Positions 1,571 through 36,820 of a stretch of 41,004 nt of DNA are shown in pieces. The notes beneath the pieces were generated by a model. That model made no database searches. It saw only the letters and a program-made list of their open reading frames with translations, and was not told the DNA's origin. The DNA comes from a virus: positions 1 to 41,004 of the IMG/VR virus record IMGVR_UViG_3300045282_000110; one strand, written 5' to 3'. The translations under genes were made by a program, and so were the position numbers. Every line of letters starts with the position of its first letter. Positions within the stretch are counted from its first letter, which is position 1.

Positions 1571-3174
1571 CTGGTCCGATCACCACGATCCTGATCCCGT
1601 GGGACGGCCGCAACGAAGCGTGGCTCACCGAATGCCTGAACAGCTTCCCGAACGGCACGCCGTTCATCATCGCCAAGAACAACGGGAAACGCGAGATGCA
1701 CGCCGCACTCAACGCCGCGCTGGACGAGATCACGACGCCGTACACATTCGTGTGCGGCGCGGACGACCTCGCCGGCCCCGGGATGCTGGAGATGCTCGAG
1801 GATGCGATCGGTGACGCGGACGGCGTCTACCCGAGGATGGAGCTCTTCGGTGATCGCGAGCAGACGTTCGAGCCGCCGCATTACGGGCGGCACATCATCC
1901 AGTGGCGGAACACGTGCGGCGTCTTCCTCGTGAAGACCGGCGTGCTTCGCGCCGTTGGCGGTTGGCGTCTCGCGGTCGTCGAGGACTGGGACTTGATGAA
2001 CCGGATCGCGAAAGCCGGATACCGGTTCGAACGAATCCTCCCCGCCGAGTATCGATACCGGCAGCACCGGCAGAGCCTGACGCAACGAATCGAGCACGCC
2101 GCGCGCGACGAATCGTTCTCGCAAGAGGACCAGCTGAAGGAGATCCTCGGAGACCGTTTGGAACGCTATCCGGTGGAGGCCGTGTTCATGCCGAGCGCGA
2201 GCCCTGGTGTCGCGTATGTGCGCGGCAGCGTGCCGGCGGAGCCGCTTCCGGGGATCGTGGCGGGGAACATCCCGCACGGCTACTTCGGATGCGACGCGAT
2301 CATCGCGATGCACCCAGCATCCGAAGCGCTCGACGTGCTGAACCGGTTCGGCGATGAAGTGCTCGTGATCGGCGACGTCGACGACGCGTACGTATCCGAA
2401 CAACTGGTGCCGGATCTGTACATCTCGAACCTCCGCGCGGTCGGGAACCAGTGGTTTGACCAGCAGCCGGATCACGTCGAATTCGTGCAGCGGTGTCCCG
2501 CCGTGTTCTGCGCGACGCCGCACCTGGCCGAGCTGTACGCCGACTACAACCCGCACGTGTATCTGCTCCGCAATAGCATCCTGGAGGCGGATTGGCGCAG
2601 GGTGCGTGAGCCGATGGGTGATGGGAAGCTGCGGATCGGGTGGGCGGCCTCGCGGCAGCATGAGCGGGATGCGCCACTCGTCGCGGAAGCACTCAGGCGT
2701 GTGAAGAAGCGGCACCCCGACGTTGAGGTGATGCTGGTGACGAACTTCCCAGCGCCGGCGTCGTGGGACTTCGAGTACGTGCAGCAGCCGCAGACGATCA
2801 GCCTCGCCGCGTACCGCGCACTGCTGGCGTCGTTTGATATCTCGATCGCGCCGATCCGTAATCACGAGATGGGGCGCGGCAAATCGGACTTGAAGTGGCT
2901 CGAGTCGAGCATGGCCGGCGCGGCATTCATCGGGTCCGACGCGAAGCCGTACGCGACCGTGAAGCATGGCCGCACCGGCCTGCTCGCGGACACGCCAGAC
3001 GAGTGGGAGGAAGCGATCGAGACGCTCATAGTCGACGACACGCTCCGCCTGAAGCTCGCGCAGGCTGCGCGGAGGCATGTCGTCACGAACCGGACTGCGC
3101 AGAAGACGGCGTACCTGTACCGGAAGGCGCTGCGCGAGATCCGCACACGAGCAGGGATGAGGGTCGCAGCATGA
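1567..3174 (+). CDS. Two-domain glycosyltransferase (GT2-like N-terminus, GT1/GT4-like C-terminus)
   Basis: 535 aa with a GTG start overlapping the epimerase stop. Residues about 3-180 look like a GT-A (family 2) domain: a TTILIPWDGR opening strand, a GADD metal-binding DxD-type motif near residue 60, and VVEDWDLMNRIAKAG as the ED acceptor-site motif. Residues about 215-520 look like a GT-B domain of the GT1/GT4 type: LRIGWAASRQ, then GRGKSDLKWLESSMAGAAFI, GRTGLLADTPDEWEEAI and a final helical segment. The fusion could add two sugars in sequence. Its position between capsid and tail genes makes virion decoration an attractive inference. Host-surface modification is the alternative. Confidence 0.85.
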   Translation: MTGPITTILIPWDGRNEAWLTECLNSFPNGTPFIIAKNNGKREMHAALNAALDEITTPYTFVCGADDLAGPGMLEMLEDAIGDADGVYPRMELFGDREQTFEPPHYGRHIIQWRNTCGVFLVKTGVLRAVGGWRLAVVEDWDLMNRIAKAGYRFERILPAEYRYRQHRQSLTQRIEHAARDESFSQEDQLKEILGDRLERYPVEAVFMPSASPGVAYVRGSVPAEPLPGIVAGNIPHGYFGCDAIIAMHPASEALDVLNRFGDEVLVIGDVDDAYVSEQLVPDLYISNLRAVGNQWFDQQPDHVEFVQRCPAVFCATPHLAELYADYNPHVYLLRNSILEADWRRVREPMGDGKLRIGWAASRQHERDAPLVAEALRRVKKRHPDVEVMLVTNFPAPASWDFEYVQQPQTISLAAYRALLASFDISIAPIRNHEMGRGKSDLKWLESSMAGAAFIGSDAKPYATVKHGRTGLLADTPDEWEEAIETLIVDDTLRLKLAQAARRHVVTNRTAQKTAYLYRKALREIRTRAGMRVAA

Positions 3175-3554
3175 GGATCCGGATTCGGGAACGGGAAGCG
3201 TGGCGGGAGCCGATCCTGGCCGCCGTTGAGGAGTGTTACGACGAGACGGTGGAGCGGACCGGCCGGCGTGGCGTCAGGTGGATCCTGCATGACCGGAAGC
3301 AATTCGAGACGCTGAAGCGGCTCGCGGACGGCACGGCATGCGCGGAATGCATGGAGGTCTTCCCTGAACGACCGGGCTCGTCGAGTGTGAAGCGGTTTGC
3401 TGAGGTGTACGACAAGCCGGGTCAGGTGCTGCCGTGGCGGCAACGCGTGATGCAGGGCTGTTGTCCGGTGTGCGGCGCTGAGGTGTCGACCGAGTACTTC
3501 CAGGCGTTGCATCAGGGGTTGCTGCCGAAGATTCCCCCGATCGAGGAGCGCTAG
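3171..3554 (+). CDS. Small Cys-rich protein, probable zinc binding
   Basis: 127 aa with ATG overlapping the glycosyltransferase stop. The N-terminus is strongly basic/acidic (MRIRIREREAWRE). Two Cys pairs, CAEC (about residue 57) and CCPVC (about residue 97), are spaced like a zinc ribbon. The family is not recognised. It sits in the virion operon between the sugar enzymes and the adaptor gene. A small head-tail or regulatory zinc protein is possible. Confidence 0.7.
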   Translation: MRIRIREREAWREPILAAVEECYDETVERTGRRGVRWILHDRKQFETLKRLADGTACAECMEVFPERPGSSSVKRFAEVYDKPGQVLPWRQRVMQGCCPVCGAEVSTEYFQALHQGLLPKIPPIEER

Positions 3555-23045: not shown

Positions 23046-23236
23046 ACGTTTCCGTCGAGTGTGGACGATGCCGAGGAGACATCTACTTCCACGCCTGCCC
23101 GGAACACCACTGGGCCGTTCTGGGTGTCTGCCGTGGTTGCCTCGCGACCAACATCGAACACAGCGGTAGGTGCCTCGAATGCGACTTTTCCGTGTGCGAC
23201 GTCGCGCCAGACCTAGAGGAAGAAGTTCAGGAATGA
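23042..23236 (+). CDS. Small zinc-ribbon protein
   Basis: 64 aa from ATG 23042 (ATGA). It has three Cys pairs, CGRC, CRGC and CLEC, plus an additional Cys, and HACPEHH, spaced as in small zinc ribbons. The acidic tail (DLEEEVQE) overlaps the methyltransferase start. Proteins like this often accompany phage DNA-modification genes, but its job is unknown. Confidence 0.65.
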   Translation: MNVSVECGRCRGDIYFHACPEHHWAVLGVCRGCLATNIEHSGRCLECDFSVCDVAPDLEEEVQE

Positions 23237-23820
23237 AGCGATACCGAACCATCGTTGCCGATCCTCCGTGGTTCACGAAGGCTGGCCCGTTGACTGGTGG
23301 ACTCGATCCAGAGGGCTGGGAGAACCAGCGCAGTCACGCCAGCCGCGGCCTTCCTTATCGGACGATGACCGTCGACGCGATGGCGGCCGTTCCGGTAGCC
23401 GATCTCGCGGAGCCGGATGCGCACCTGTACCTGTGGACGATCAACCGGTATATCGAGGATGCGTACGTGATCGCGCGAGCGTGGGGGTTCAAGCCGAGCA
23501 CGATGCTCGTCTGGGCGAAGACGCCGTTTGGAGGCGGGCTCGGGGGGACGTTCGGGCTCTGCACGGAGTACATCCTGTTCGCGCGCCGCGGCACCCTCGC
23601 GTCTACAGGACGCCTCGGTCGGAACTGGTTCGACTGGAAGCGGCAGTACGACGAACGCGGCAAGCCGGTGCATAGCCGGAAGCCGGAGGCGTTCCTCGAC
23701 CTCGTCGAGAGCGTATCGCCTGGCCCGTACCTCGAGTTGTTCGCGCGTCGGAACCGCCTCGGGTGGGACACATGGGGGAACGAGAGCCTGAATCACGTCG
23801 ATCTGGAGTCGTCTGCGTGA
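23233..23820 (+). CDS. MT-A70-type adenine N6 methyltransferase
   Basis: 195 aa. DPPW at residues 10-13 is the MT-A70 catalytic motif. LYLWTINRY, FKPSTMLVWAK and RKPEAFLDLVE complete the usual order of strands and SAM-pocket elements. It has the length of the compact phage forms. It probably methylates adenine in phage DNA, giving protection from host restriction, or has a regulatory role. No cognate nuclease is evident nearby, which favours self-protection. The ending ESSA is echoed 211 bases later by the next small gene. Confidence 0.85.
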   Translation: MKRYRTIVADPPWFTKAGPLTGGLDPEGWENQRSHASRGLPYRTMTVDAMAAVPVADLAEPDAHLYLWTINRYIEDAYVIARAWGFKPSTMLVWAKTPFGGGLGGTFGLCTEYILFARRGTLASTGRLGRNWFDWKRQYDERGKPVHSRKPEAFLDLVESVSPGPYLELFARRNRLGWDTWGNESLNHVDLESSA

Positions 23821-24031: not shown

Positions 24032-24390
24032 TGTTTCATCGTGCGCATATCTTATACCGCCATCTCGACGCCTCGTCTTGTTTGGCTCTACCACAGCGTT
24101 TGACGGCTACTTGTCGCATACGAACGGGAACTGGCGCAAACCCGCGAAACCCGTGGATTGCAGCCACTTTGGGAGCGGCGCGGCGTCGCATATGGAGCCG
24201 ATATGCACCCCTGATCGTTGCAATATCTTCTACCGAGGCGTCGGCTGAGCCGAACGAGTCGCCGTGCGTGACCTGCGACGGAGAGGGCATGGTCGCGCAC
24301 TGCTGCGAGCAGCGGATCGGGCCGTACCGCTGGAAGTGCTGCGGCGATCCGATCCTCGCCCCATGCCCGGACTGCGACGGCGCGTCGTGA
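24031..24390 (+). CDS. Protein with C-terminal Cys-rich zinc region, start uncertain
   Basis: 119 aa if read from ATG 24031. The last 45 residues are convincing: CVTCDGEGMVAHCCEQRIG, KCCGD and CPDC form a DnaJ-like or rubredoxin-like zinc arrangement, and the stop overlaps the next GTG. The first 70 residues fall in a stretch of different base composition (24032-24240), with motifs that look regulatory, and may not be translated. A shorter start within 24240-24280 is possible but has no ATG. Confidence 0.45.
   Translation: MFHRAHILYRHLDASSCLALPQRLTATCRIRTGTGANPRNPWIAATLGAARRRIWSRYAPLIVAISSTEASAEPNESPCVTCDGEGMVAHCCEQRIGPYRWKCCGDPILAPCPDCDGAS
24041..24208. other. Iterated GCATAY motif in an AT-richer island
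   Basis: GTGCGCATAT (24041-24050), GTCGCATACG (24113-24122), GTCGCATATG (24185-24194) and, inverted, CGATATGCAC (24199-24208). The last two form a GCATAT/ATATGC stem with a seven-base gap. The first three copies are exactly 72 bases apart. Regularly spaced repeats in a low-GC patch suggest protein-binding sites, for instance integrase arm or excisionase sites, or a regulator. The integrase gene is about 1.3 kb away. Confidence 0.45.
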
Positions 24391-25040
24391 GCCGGCCGCT
24401 CCTCCTCGACCTGTTCTCGGGTGCCGGCGGATGCGCGATGGGGTATCACAACGCCGGATTCGACGTCGTCGGCGTCGACATCGTCGACCAGCCACGCTAC
24501 CCGTTCACGTTCATCCAGGCGGACGCGCTCGAGCACCTCCGTACGTCCGACCTGTCGCTCGTCGCCGCGATCCACGCATCGCCACCATGCCAGGCGTTCA
24601 GCCTCGCAACGCTATACCACCCGGCGACCGCCGCGAAGCATCCCAACCTGATCGACGAGACACGGCGCCTGCTCGACGCGTCCGGGTTGCCGTACGTGAT
24701 CGAGAACGTCGAACGCAGCCCTCTCCGCCGTGACCTCGTGCTGTGCGGCGAGATGTTCAACCTCCGCGTGCATCGACACCGCGTGTTCGAACTCGGCCGC
24801 TGGTTCGCGATGCAGCCACACCATCAACCGCACCGACTCGAAGGCGCCGTTCACAACTGCGACGTCCGCGACGGCGTTGCGCGCCTCGTGGCCGGCAACT
24901 ACTCCAACCATCCCGACGCGTCCGACGCGATGGACATCGACTGGATGACGCGGAAGGAACTCGCCCAGGCTATCCCGCCGGCGTACACGTCCTACGTCGG
25001 CGCCGCGCTGATGCAGCACCTGAGGAGCGCCGCCGCGTGA
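24387..25040 (+). CDS. C5-cytosine DNA methyltransferase
   Basis: 217 aa from GTG 24387. Motif I is LLLDLFSGAGGCAMGYHNAG, motif IV SPPCQAFS with nucleophile C68, motif VI ENVERS (106-108), and motifs IX/X follow near the end (IPPAYTSYVGAALMQ). It is clearly shorter than classical C5 enzymes (300-400 aa), with a reduced target-recognition region as in many phage forms. It probably methylates phage DNA against restriction, working beside the MT-A70 gene 570 bases upstream. Confidence 0.9.
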   Translation: MSRPLLLDLFSGAGGCAMGYHNAGFDVVGVDIVDQPRYPFTFIQADALEHLRTSDLSLVAAIHASPPCQAFSLATLYHPATAAKHPNLIDETRRLLDASGLPYVIENVERSPLRRDLVLCGEMFNLRVHRHRVFELGRWFAMQPHHQPHRLEGAVHNCDVRDGVARLVAGNYSNHPDASDAMDIDWMTRKELAQAIPPAYTSYVGAALMQHLRSAAA

Positions 25041-25976: not shown

Positions 25977-26192
25977 ATGCCGCGTCCATCCCGATACGTC
26001 GACCGCAGCACGAAGAAGTTCCGCATGCGAGCTCTCTGCCAAGACTGCGACTGGTCCAGATACGCCTACGGCCTCCGGACCGCACTCTGCACCCTCCAAC
26101 AGCAAGCACGCGAACACGCCTACCTCGACACGCACAAGGTCGACCTGGCGGTATGGGTCAACACGACCTACACGCCCAAGGACCCGCCGTGA
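25977..26192 (+). CDS. Small Cys-pair protein (71 aa)
   Basis: ATG 25977 abuts the previous stop. It has a basic start (MPRPSRYVDRSTKKFRMR), then CQDCDW and a second Cys in TALCTL, with His in EHAYLDTH completing a possible zinc site. The fold would be like short phage zinc-finger proteins that bind nucleic acid. The stop overlaps the replication gene. Confidence 0.6.
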   Translation: MPRPSRYVDRSTKKFRMRALCQDCDWSRYAYGLRTALCTLQQQAREHAYLDTHKVDLAVWVNTTYTPKDPP

Positions 26193-26575
26193 GATCGCCA
26201 CGCATCCGCACCATCAAGCCGGAACTCTGGCAGGACCAGGACCTCCAACTTCTCCCCGTCCACGCTCGGCTCCTGTTCATCGGGCTGCTGTCGAACGCCG
26301 ACGACGAAGGACGCCTCGAAGGGCATCCGGGACTGATCCGAGCCCGCATCTTCCCATGCGACACGGACGTCACGAACCGCCGCATCGAGGGGTGGCTCGA
26401 GGCGCTCGAGGAAGGCAGATTCGTCGCGTTGTACGCCGTCTCAGGCCGGCCCTACATCGAGATCACGAACTGGCTGAAGCACCAGAAAATCAACCGCCCA
26501 ACAGCATCCACAATCCCCGATCCATCACTGAATGGACACGGAGCGATCACTGAGCATTCACTGAGGATTCCGTGA
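26189..26575 (+). CDS. Phage replication initiator / replisome organiser N-terminal-type protein
   Basis: 128 aa from GTG 26189. It follows the pattern of phage replication proteins whose N-terminal winged helix reads RIRTIKPELWQDQDLQLL, ARLLFIGLLSNADDEGRLEG, IRARIFP, WLEALEEGRFVALY and ITNWLKHQKINRP. Only the DNA-binding domain is present, with no C-terminal helicase-recruiting part, so the protein is short. The next ORFs may fill that role. Tandem 11-bp repeats begin inside its last codons and run past the stop, in the way lambda ori lies in gene O. Confidence 0.75.
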   Translation: MRSPRIRTIKPELWQDQDLQLLPVHARLLFIGLLSNADDEGRLEGHPGLIRARIFPCDTDVTNRRIEGWLEALEEGRFVALYAVSGRPYIEITNWLKHQKINRPTASTIPDPSLNGHGAITEHSLRIP

Positions 26576-26601
26576 ACGTTCACGAACCATTCACAACCTC
26601 G
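26514..26601 (+). repeat. Tandem 11-bp iterons, probable replication origin
   Basis: Units of exactly 11 bp start at 26514, 26525, 26536, 26547, 26558, 26569, 26580 and 26591. The best copies are TCACTGAATGG, TCACTGAGCAT and TCACTGAGGAT; weaker ones are TCCCCGATCCA, ACACGGAGCGA, TCCGTGAACGT, TCACGAACCAT and TCACAACCTCG. The core is TCACTGA. The 11-bp phase puts every copy on the same DNA face and is not a multiple of three, so it is not caused by coding. GTGAACGTTCAC (26572-26583) is a perfect palindrome inside the run. Just downstream lie another palindrome (GCCTGCGCAGGC) and a tandem GGGATC tract. Confidence 0.7.
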
Positions 26602-26733
26602 CGCGTAGGCCTGCGCAGGCGCGGATCGGGATCGGGATCTAAGACCAACCCCACCCCCACCCCGCCTTCGCGCGCGCCCGCGCGAAGCGGGCGGCCGGCG
26701 AAGCGCGGTAGCGGGGGGAGGAAAGATGGGTGA
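26572..26733 (+). CDS. Possible small basic ORF over the origin flank
   Basis: 53 aa from GTG 26572 (overlap with the initiator stop) to 26733. It is low-complexity Gly/Ser/Pro/Arg (RRRGSGSGSKTNPTPTPPSR) with a Lys/Arg end. It spans the iterons and the repeat-rich stretch behind them, so the frame may be open only because of base composition. A disordered basic tail peptide is conceivable. If it is not coding, 26576-26725 is simply origin DNA. Confidence 0.3.
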   Translation: MNVHEPFTTSRVGLRRRGSGSGSKTNPTPTPPSRAPARSGRPAKRGSGGRKDG

Positions 26734-27220
26734 AGGGCAGATCCTCGACGAGCTCGTGACGCTCCTCGAGGCGAGATCGTCAACGCCGATCCTGAACCCC
26801 GAAGCGTGGCGGAAAGCAACCCGGGCACGCCTCGAAGCGCAAGGCATCGAAGCGATCACCGAACAACACGCTCGGCTGACCGGTACCCGCGTCGCCACCC
26901 CAAGCCGCGGTGTCGACTATCACGTTCGCCACCTCGACCACGCGATCACCGACGCCGTCAACCTGCTCGGCCGGATCGACGCACAAACGGGACAGCGATC
27001 GCTCAGCGACGAGGACGTGTGGACGATCCTCTGCCAGGACTATCCCCAGGAGATCGCGTCACGAGCCGCGAACATCGCGATGGAAGGCACGTTCCAAATC
27101 CAGTACGGCCATAGCCGGCGCGACAAGGTCGACGATCCATCGTGGAAACGGATCACGCTCGCCGAGTATCTCGCCGCCAACCCCAACGCAGCACCCCCAG
27201 CCACTGAAGAAGCGTCGTGA
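26726..27220 (+). CDS. Replication-region protein, possible partner of the initiator
   Basis: 164 aa with GGGGGAGGAAAG before ATG 26726. The product is mainly helical (EAWRKATRARLEAQGIEAIT, DHAITDAVNLLGRIDA), with no Walker motif or zinc cysteine cluster (a single Cys). Position right after an initiator and origin is where phages put a helicase loader or primosome component. That role is inferred from position only. The stop overlaps the sigma-like gene. Confidence 0.5.
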   Translation: MGEGQILDELVTLLEARSSTPILNPEAWRKATRARLEAQGIEAITEQHARLTGTRVATPSRGVDYHVRHLDHAITDAVNLLGRIDAQTGQRSLSDEDVWTILCQDYPQEIASRAANIAMEGTFQIQYGHSRRDKVDDPSWKRITLAEYLAANPNAAPPATEEAS

Positions 27221-27423
27221 TCACGATCGACGACTTCAACCGCGCCCTCGCCGCGACCTGCACCGAACGACAACGCGTGATCGTGCAGCTCCGCTACATC
27301 CAGCACGAAACGTGGGACACGATCGGCCAGGAACTCAACGTCAACCCCTCCACCGCGCTCCGCGAAGCACGCACCGCGTTCGAACGCATCCGCCGCCACC
27401 TCGAACCAGGAGACGCACCGTGA
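27217..27423 (+). CDS. Sigma-70 region-4-like HTH protein, candidate late regulator
   Basis: 68 aa from GTG 27217. TERQRVIVQLRYIQHETWDT, then IGQELNVNPSTALREARTAF, is the region-4 helix-turn-helix pattern (including the ERxRxVxxLRY start) used by sigma factors and by small phage transcription activators such as ArpU/RinA types. It is the last regulator-like gene before the packaging block, with a hairpin 250 bases downstream, so control of late transcription is a sensible inference. Confidence 0.65.
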   Translation: MITIDDFNRALAATCTERQRVIVQLRYIQHETWDTIGQELNVNPSTALREARTAFERIRRHLEPGDAP

Positions 27424-35099: not shown

Positions 35100-36820
35100 T
35101 GCCGCTGACGCAGTTCGATCTCCGCGCCGTCTCCGCATCGAACAACCTCTATAGCACCGGCACCGTCGTGTTGAGTGGCGGCGCGAACGTGACGGTTGGC
35201 ACGAACGCGCAGACGATCACGATCGCCGCTGCTGCCCAGTCGGTGCAGACGCAGAGCCTGTTCTCAGGCGGCGTCTCGAACCTCGGGAACACCGCCGGCT
35301 CGACCGGCGTCTCGGGTACCAGGATGGTGCTGGTTGGTTCGCAGAACGTGACGCTGTCCCAGTCGACGGACGCGAACGGGAACACCGTCTCGTTCAGCGC
35401 CGCAGGCGGCGGAGCAGGAGCCTTCTCCGCAGGTGTCTCCACCGCAGGGAACACGGCTGGCTCGACCGGAGTCACCGGGACGCGTCTCGTCCTGGTCGGC
35501 TCGAACATGGTCAGCCTGTCCCAGTCAACGGATGCCAACGGCGGCACCGTCAGCTTGAACGCGACGCAGACGGTGCAGACGCAGGACGTGCTCTCCGCAG
35601 GCGTGTCAACGGGTGGGAACACGGCCGGCAACACGACCGTGAACACCGGCTCAAGGCTGGTCCTCGTCGGCTCCGGAATGGTTTCCCTCAGTCAGGCGAC
35701 TGCGGCTGGCGCTTCCACCATCTCGATCAGCGCGACGCAGAGCGTGCAGACCCAGAGCCTGTTCAGCGGAGGCGTCTCCAACCTGGGGAACACCGCTGGT
35801 TCGACAGGAGTCACGGGCACCCGCCTGGTGCTCGTCGGGACGAACATGGTCAGCCTCTCCCAGTCGACGGACGCGAGTGGCGGCACAGTCAGCATCAACG
35901 CGACGCAGAGCGTGCAGACGCAGGGGAACCTGTCCATAGGCGTCTCGACGGGTGGGAATACGCAGGGGAACACGACCGTCAACACCGGATCCAGGCTCGT
36001 TCTGGTCGGTACGAACAACATCACCCTCAGCCAGGCGACCGCAGCCGGCGCGACGACCGTCAGCATCAGCGGCGCAGCTCCGTTGACTGCGTCGATGTGG
36101 CCGTTCACGCCGAACCCGATCGCGACCAACACGCTGAACAGTGGAACCAGTGGCTCCACTGGTGGCTCCAGCCAGACGAGCATCTCGTATTACGTCGCGC
36201 CGATCGTGATCGATGAGGCGATCACGTTCAACGAGATCCGCCAGGCGATCTCCAACGTGACGAGTGCAGGCACCGGAAGCATCAGCGCCGCGCACTACCT
36301 CGGCATCTACACGCTGAACGCCGGCACTGCGCTGAGCCTCGTGTCGAGCGCGATCTTCAACGTCGTGGTATCGCAGAACAGTGCGACGGCGATGACTGCG
36401 TCGTGGTGGTGGGGCACGAACAGCGCAGCGAACTCGTCCAGCATCAGCGGCAACATGACGAATAGCTTCTTCGGGCTGAGGCCCGTGACGATGCTGGCGG
36501 GAGCGAACAGCATTCCTCCCGCTGATTATTGGGTCGCGCACGGATACACGCAGCGCACGAGCGGAGGGTCCAGTATCGGCGGGTATGGCGCAGCGATGTT
36601 CCTGAGCGCGCTCGGCTCCAATGCTGCCGGTCTGAATGTGCCGTTCGGCACGAACATCCAGGTCATGCCGGGGCGGTTCATGGGCCAGTTCACCACGACC
36701 TCGAACGGCACGACCACGAACGTGATGGTCGTCCCGGCCAGCATCCATACCAGCGCGATCACGACCAACCTCGGAACCGTCGCATGGATCATTCCGAACT
36801 TCTGGCTCCTCAGCACCTGA
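35099..36820 (+). CDS. Repeat-built fibre-like surface protein
   Basis: 573 aa from GTG 35099. Residues about 40-325 contain at least six repeats of about 45-55 residues with the form VQTQ-LFSGGVSNLGNTAGSTG, TGTRLVLVG, MVSLSQSTDA, GTVSI (two of them are shortened variants beginning GNLSIGVSTGGNTQGNTT). The repeats are Gly/Ser/Thr/Asn/Val-rich with regular polar turns, as in beta-helical or beta-roll fibres. The C-terminal 230 residues (MWPFTPNPIA onward) look like a separate globular head. It is a likely receptor-binding or decoration fibre, and its neighbour encodes a glycosyltransferase. Confidence 0.75.
   Translation: MPLTQFDLRAVSASNNLYSTGTVVLSGGANVTVGTNAQTITIAAAAQSVQTQSLFSGGVSNLGNTAGSTGVSGTRMVLVGSQNVTLSQSTDANGNTVSFSAAGGGAGAFSAGVSTAGNTAGSTGVTGTRLVLVGSNMVSLSQSTDANGGTVSLNATQTVQTQDVLSAGVSTGGNTAGNTTVNTGSRLVLVGSGMVSLSQATAAGASTISISATQSVQTQSLFSGGVSNLGNTAGSTGVTGTRLVLVGTNMVSLSQSTDASGGTVSINATQSVQTQGNLSIGVSTGGNTQGNTTVNTGSRLVLVGTNNITLSQATAAGATTVSISGAAPLTASMWPFTPNPIATNTLNSGTSGSTGGSSQTSISYYVAPIVIDEAITFNEIRQAISNVTSAGTGSISAAHYLGIYTLNAGTALSLVSSAIFNVVVSQNSATAMTASWWWGTNSAANSSSISGNMTNSFFGLRPVTMLAGANSIPPADYWVAHGYTQRTSGGSSIGGYGAAMFLSALGSNAAGLNVPFGTNIQVMPGRFMGQFTTTSNGTTTNVMVVPASIHTSAITTNLGTVAWIIPNFWLLST

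Follow-up and report, generated by a model that had tools for sequence, protein, structure and literature searches.

A helix-phased array of palindromic iterons inside a phage initiator gene as the probable site of its replication origin

Does a run of 11-bp repeats that crosses the end of a phage initiator gene mark the origin of replication, or does it serve the encoded peptide, the control of expression, partition or nothing at all? This question is raised by the IMG/VR record IMGVR_UViG_3300045282_000110, which was analyzed here over its whole length of 41,004 bp (the window) and whose gene content includes head, portal, terminase and tail genes. A local minimum of the cumulative GC skew lies near 28 kb, a weak signal that is confounded by gene composition.

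The initiator gene at 26189-26575 (plus strand) encodes 128 aa. Residues 5-113 match the phage replication initiation proteins of phrog_1408 (E 3.7e-32), and AlphaFold2 models a confident winged helix (pLDDT 91), the domain itself being encoded at 26201-26500. The protein thus belongs to the phrog_1408-type family by homology of its N-terminal winged helix, but it lacks the C-terminal domain that most members carry after a low-complexity linker; only 24 residues follow the winged helix, against a median of 168 among relatives, and initiators as short as this are found in the rare members L180 and L257. No sequence match to solved structures was obtained for the initiator, and a full-length relative gave weak top matches by fold (E > 0.001), namely 4pql ("initiator") and 4pt7 ("N-terminal domain of DNA binding protein"), both of which we take to be plasmid RepA N-terminal domains. 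A C-terminal domain encoded elsewhere in the window was considered and rejected, as BLAST of the C-termini of 304 relatives against all window ORFs gave scattered weak matches (best E 0.006). The next gene (26726-27220, plus strand, 164 aa) occupies the position at which the C-terminus of the initiator is encoded in relatives, and judged by position alone its product, for which no homologue was recognized, could substitute for the missing part. A helicase loader or helicase gene follows the initiator in many annotated relatives, and some of their C-termini match DnaT-type domains; no helicase or loader gene was recognized among the window ORFs searched. Genes for MT-A70-type and C5-cytosine DNA methyltransferases lie upstream of the initiator at 23170-23820 and 24264-25040, and two genes past it 27217-27423 encodes a 68-aa product that matches sigma-70 region 4.

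The array (26514-26601, plus strand) had been described in the first-pass annotation as eight 11-bp units in register, three of them with an exact TCACTGA core, that span the last codons and the stop of the initiator gene, and each of these points was borne out. The cores, with the consensus TCA-N-TGA, start at 26514, 26525, 26536, 26547, 26558, 26569, 26580 and 26591, those at 26525, 26547 and 26558 are without mismatch, and the stop codon falls inside the array. Several of the eight match poorly, and both units beyond the stop are weak. The tandem-repeat search and shuffle comparison that the annotation had proposed upheld the 11-bp periodicity: when these 88 bp are shuffled with dinucleotide content preserved, 0 of 3000 shuffles score as high as the array at period 11 (stacked-column score, z = 10.5), no shuffle reaches the best score over periods 5-29, and the lag-11 self-match has its genome-wide maximum at 26511. 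Six 21-nt copies were recovered by the repeat finder at spacings of exactly 11, 11, 11, 11 and 11, while Tandem Repeats Finder reports the best core of the array alone (26547-26570). The paired motif TCANTGA-N4-TCANTGA, with at most two mismatches, occurs five times in the 41 kb, all within the array. A tandem repeat of 339 bp (1.8 copies, 77% match) is also present at 35447-36071, within a 573-aa ORF near structural genes.

Relatives of the initiator were taken from IMG/VR, GTDB and cultured phages, giving 513 loci, or 318 once near-duplicates were removed, and motifs in them were found by HMM. Averaged over the first 174 loci, self-match is raised at lags 10, 11 and 20 within 100 bp past the winged-helix domain and at lags 6-7 farther downstream than this zone; regions elsewhere show mainly coding-type periods, save that lag 10 reaches 0.305 between -240 and -120. 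A de novo palindrome scan (all 3-nt half-sites, gaps 0-3, periods 9-12, score >= 6) detected an array in 167 of the 318 relatives, with a period of 11 in 107, 10 in 57, 9 in two and 12 in one. At a cut-off of score >= 5, palindromic arrays of TCx half-sites with a period of 10 or 11 bp were present just past the winged-helix domain in 189 of 317 classed loci and in 3 of 954 codon-shuffled controls. The main classes are TCG|CGA every 10 bp and, every 11 bp, TCG-N-CGA, TCG|CGA, TCA-N-TGA, TCC|GGA and TAC-N-GTA. The window array belongs to the TCA-N-TGA class, which is also found in Gordonia phage Gsput1, Corynebacterium phage PSonyx and Marinomonas phage P12026, and array-bearing loci in named genomes, some of which are metagenome bins, extend over eight phyla. 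Since relatives carry arrays of the same period and these three phages fall into the same class, 11 bp is not peculiar to the window phage, as the first-pass annotation had supposed; a period of 10 or 11 is common across a large initiator family. Its expectation that relatives would keep the array together with the gene holds in part, for the same place is occupied in those 189 loci, but some relatives keep the gene without an array by the scan (the HNH-fused L182 and L144, and, for TCx arrays, the H102 group of HK639, F10 and Mx8), and about a third of relatives have no clear array. In two further H102 relatives, likewise without TCx arrays, Escherichia phage Louie (L519) and Bordetella phage IFTN8 (L522), 11-bp units like AGCACTGTGCA / AGCACCATGCA (GCAC-N-GTGC) were seen by eye just past the winged-helix domain; these are perhaps another half-site class. 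Tandem sites that overlap the initiator gene in register in the window, and that are kept in place among relatives, are two of the features expected of an iteron-type origin inside the initiator gene.

A column-by-column comparison of the array classes identified residue 102 as their best separator. This residue lies in the conserved HQKI-x-RP tail past the wing and is Asn in the window initiator (HQKI-N-RP; codon at 26492-26494, plus strand). TCx arrays were found in 132 of 185 loci with Asp at this position, 39 of 92 with Asn, 12 of 15 with Glu, 5 of 12 with Ser and one of two with Ala. The rule that Asp goes with TCG and Asn with TCA was fixed first and then applied to 161 new deduplicated loci, in which half-sites were called from the DNA alone. 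Among these, D102 was accompanied by TCG in 48, TCA in two and TCT in one, and N102 by TCA in 21 and TCG in none; the rule holds in 69 of the 72 test loci (Fisher on the TCG/TCA table, D versus N, 5e-16). Glu, first met in the new loci, had TCG in 12 of 12, Ser had TCC in three and TCA in one, and Thr accompanies TCCGGA in Bifidobacterium phage BigBern1, which lies slightly below the score limit. Named examples of the two pairings are Gordonia phage Gsput1 (N102, TCA) and Mycobacterium phage Bernal13 (D102, TCG). Phylogeny alone was considered as the source of this link. On a tree built without column 102, eight of the 12 changes of half-site share their branch with a change at residue 102 (p 1.6e-10; next-best column 1e-4), and all 14 of the nearest cross-class pairs, 53-68% identical, follow the rule; both results counter that explanation. 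Few changes lie on well-supported branches, where three independent pairs agree in three of three, a number of pairs too small for that test alone to be significant.

This covariation suggests that the initiator recognizes the sites of the array. Asp-cytosine and Asn-adenine are familiar side-chain pairing preferences, which makes a direct contact between residue 102 and the third base of the half-site plausible. The rule was tested within TCx half-sites, and there are departures from it. One N102 clade of 14 loci, largely enterobacterial, has TAC-N-GTA in place of TCA, and some D102 loci have TCA with a gap of 2, GTG or TTCC cores. L113 and L115 (Thermodesulfobacterium), both with D102, are among the exceptions, their long arrays consisting of TCAGATGA-type cores at gap 2 and period 10. 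Given the TAC clade, the deviant D102 cores and the H102 group without a TCx array, other residues must matter, and residue 102 is not the sole determinant.

Shortly past the array the window reads GGATCGGGATCGGGATC, and the GGGATC-type tandem tract that had been noted there is confirmed as GGATCG x2.8 at 26623-26639 (plus strand), a short block of 17 bp. Across 131 loci, the 60 bp past the last iteron contain 1.5-2.6 GGA per 20 bp, against 0.2-0.5 elsewhere, and purines make up as much as 79% of the coding strand in this block. The repeats of relatives take the forms GGAAGG, GGAACAGG, GGATCAA or GGACCTA, with units of about 5-8 bp, and the mean AT fraction past the array is 0.42-0.48, so that GGA repeats stand where lambda has an AT-rich tract. 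In the window, the region 26599-26725, around and after the GGATCG block and ahead of the next start codon, is very GC-rich and holds overlapping inverted repeats (e.g., 26666-26674 with 26679-26687). The role that we favor for the GGA module is to open the strands or to load a helicase on one strand; alternatively, it could be a tract prone to R-loops or a site that the C-terminal part binds.

Very probably, the array is that part of the phage origin of replication to which the initiator binds, and on its cores the initiator would form a row that acts on the adjoining GGA module. The winged-helix protein, once made, would bind the palindromic TCA-N-TGA cores in its own gene, and with one core per helical turn successive copies would line up along a single face of the helix. 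This row would open the GGA module at 26623-26639 or position a helicase on it; for most relatives, the final helicase step would fall to the C-terminal part together with a downstream loader or helicase gene. Initiator binding, opening at the module, helicase loading and a replication start at the array are steps that we infer from sequence comparison.

The strongest competitor is that the array is an operator by which the initiator represses or paces expression of its own or the next gene, with replication starting elsewhere. Autoregulation by initiators is common, and the covariation of residue 102 with the half-site shows recognition rather than function. However, some 325 bp of the gene precede the array, which is not at a promoter, it is paired with the GGA module at a fixed distance, and the layout mirrors the proven origins of lambda (PMC7466680) and pSK41 (PMC5703833), so that we consider an operator function unlikely.

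The reading frame offers a further test of what is being kept. Given that an 11-bp array runs through all three frames, one TGA in three would fall in frame as a stop. Across the TCA-class loci (n=42), codon-aligned units have GGA in 30 of 40 cases and TGA in one, whereas out-of-frame units have TGA in 106 of 119 and GGA in 4 of 119. The window unit at 26536-26542 (plus strand), whose TGA would be such a stop, reads CAC GGA. At the next codon-aligned unit, 26569, the TGA is kept and used as the stop codon of the initiator gene (26573-26575, plus strand), leaving two units beyond it in untranslated DNA. The short initiator of L180 likewise ends at an iteron TGA, and the arrays of L257 are wholly 3' of the initiator stop. 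Given the in-frame TGA-to-GGA change, the units beyond the stop here and the L257 arrays past the gene, the array is kept as a DNA site, and selection appears to maintain its sites while avoiding in-frame stops. The degeneracy of unit 26536 is thereby explained by stop avoidance and is not mere decay.

These data bear directly on the idea that the repeats are a feature of the protein, a repetitive linker kept for its peptide, which would accord with the array being translated in most relatives. Neither of the periods 10 and 11 is divisible by three, TGA-to-GGA swaps are confined to in-frame units, units continue beyond the stop in the window and in L257, codon-shuffled DNA is without the array, and the encoded linker of pSK41 is reported to be dispensable (PMC5703833). 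A coding-repeat explanation is ruled out by the period, the frame test and the codon shuffles, and we regard a protein function as very improbable. The earlier claim that coding does not explain the repeats therefore stands, with the amendment that the degenerate units are partly due to the reading frame.

Just as little credit can be given to a parS-like site for partition or incompatibility to which some other protein binds: some actinophages do have parS sites of repeated short motifs (PMC7157519), but the window genes searched gave no ParA/ParB family match, and it is with residue 102 of the initiator itself that the sites vary. A chance or decayed repeat with no function in the window phage, as several degenerate units and a gene without the C-terminal part of its relatives might suggest, is scarcely credible with z = 10.5, a place and core as in relatives and a GGA module present.

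An origin formed by iterons in the initiator gene is thus well supported, since the place is kept, the sites are palindromic and covary with residue 102, in-frame stops are avoided and units persist past the stop. Comparison across relatives backs the first-pass annotation in this central proposal, while its 11-bp specificity fails and the degeneracy that it noted is set in part by the reading frame. Whether the locus represents a widespread format in many bacterial phyla, with palindromic iterons once per turn, a near one-residue code (D/E for TCG, N for TCA and S/T for TCC at position 102) and a strand-specific GGA module for opening or helicase loading, all inside the initiator coding sequence, we consider an evenly balanced matter. 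Phages and prophages, cultured or not, commonly carry members of the family, and many of these are annotated as hypothetical. If the format is real, the origins of many phages would be readable from sequence, and odd linkers such as SLNAHGGLTEDS, RESSRNPRE and GNREQG would be explained as translated DNA sites. Because one initiator residue largely predicts the array sequence, recognition is now directly testable, and exchanging one amino acid would cleanly test how specific an initiator is for its origin. For origin opening, the GGA module would be relevant as a non-AT-rich partner element.

Among known systems, oriλ and lambdoid origins lie inside gene O (PMC7466680), and oriλ resembles the window in that initiator-bound iterons, the binding being predicted here, lie mid initiator gene beside a second element; many relatives also share the lambda-like order of initiator and then loader gene. 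Lambda, however, has four longer iterons (six in Stx phages) and an AT-rich tract (PMC7466680), whereas this family has 6-7 bp cores every 10 or 11 bp and a GGA-rich purine repeat. The analogy with lambda that had been drawn therefore fits in layout but not in the second element, which is GGA-repeat DNA; longer iterons beside an AT-rich tract are not what the window holds, and its initiator has no O-family match in Pfam. At pSK41-type RepA_N origins, a winged-helix N-terminal domain binds repeats central in its own gene (PMC5703833), as is proposed here, and the fold similarity to 4pql and 4pt7 is weak. With its four Rep boxes, A+T-rich tract and DnaD-like C-terminal domain, pSK41 differs from the window family (PMC5703833), and the window initiator had no Pfam match that would place it in RepA_N. 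The principle of an origin within the initiator gene is thus already known (PMC7466680; PMC5703833). In the literature searched, which left subscription papers largely outside, we found no description of a helix-phased iteron format, the residue-102 link or the GGA module, nor the exact array strings.

By sequence the window protein belongs to the phrog_1408 and related phage initiators, from most of which it differs by its missing C-terminal part. Mycobacteriophage RepA-type systems can be likened to it as well. In these phages, repA with its flanks supports plasmid replication and the origin was placed within or next to repA, with no repeated motifs reported for the stretch that runs from the tail genes to parS-L (Wetzel et al., 2020, PMC7157519). 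Mycobacterium phage prophiGD05-3 (L517), whose gene at 2498-3337 is annotated as RepA-like, falls within the family of the window initiator and carries an 11-bp TCGCGA array together with GGAACAGG repeats, and it is through this annotation that the two systems are connected. The prophiGD05-3 array is accordingly proposed as a candidate origin for RepA-type mycobacteriophages.
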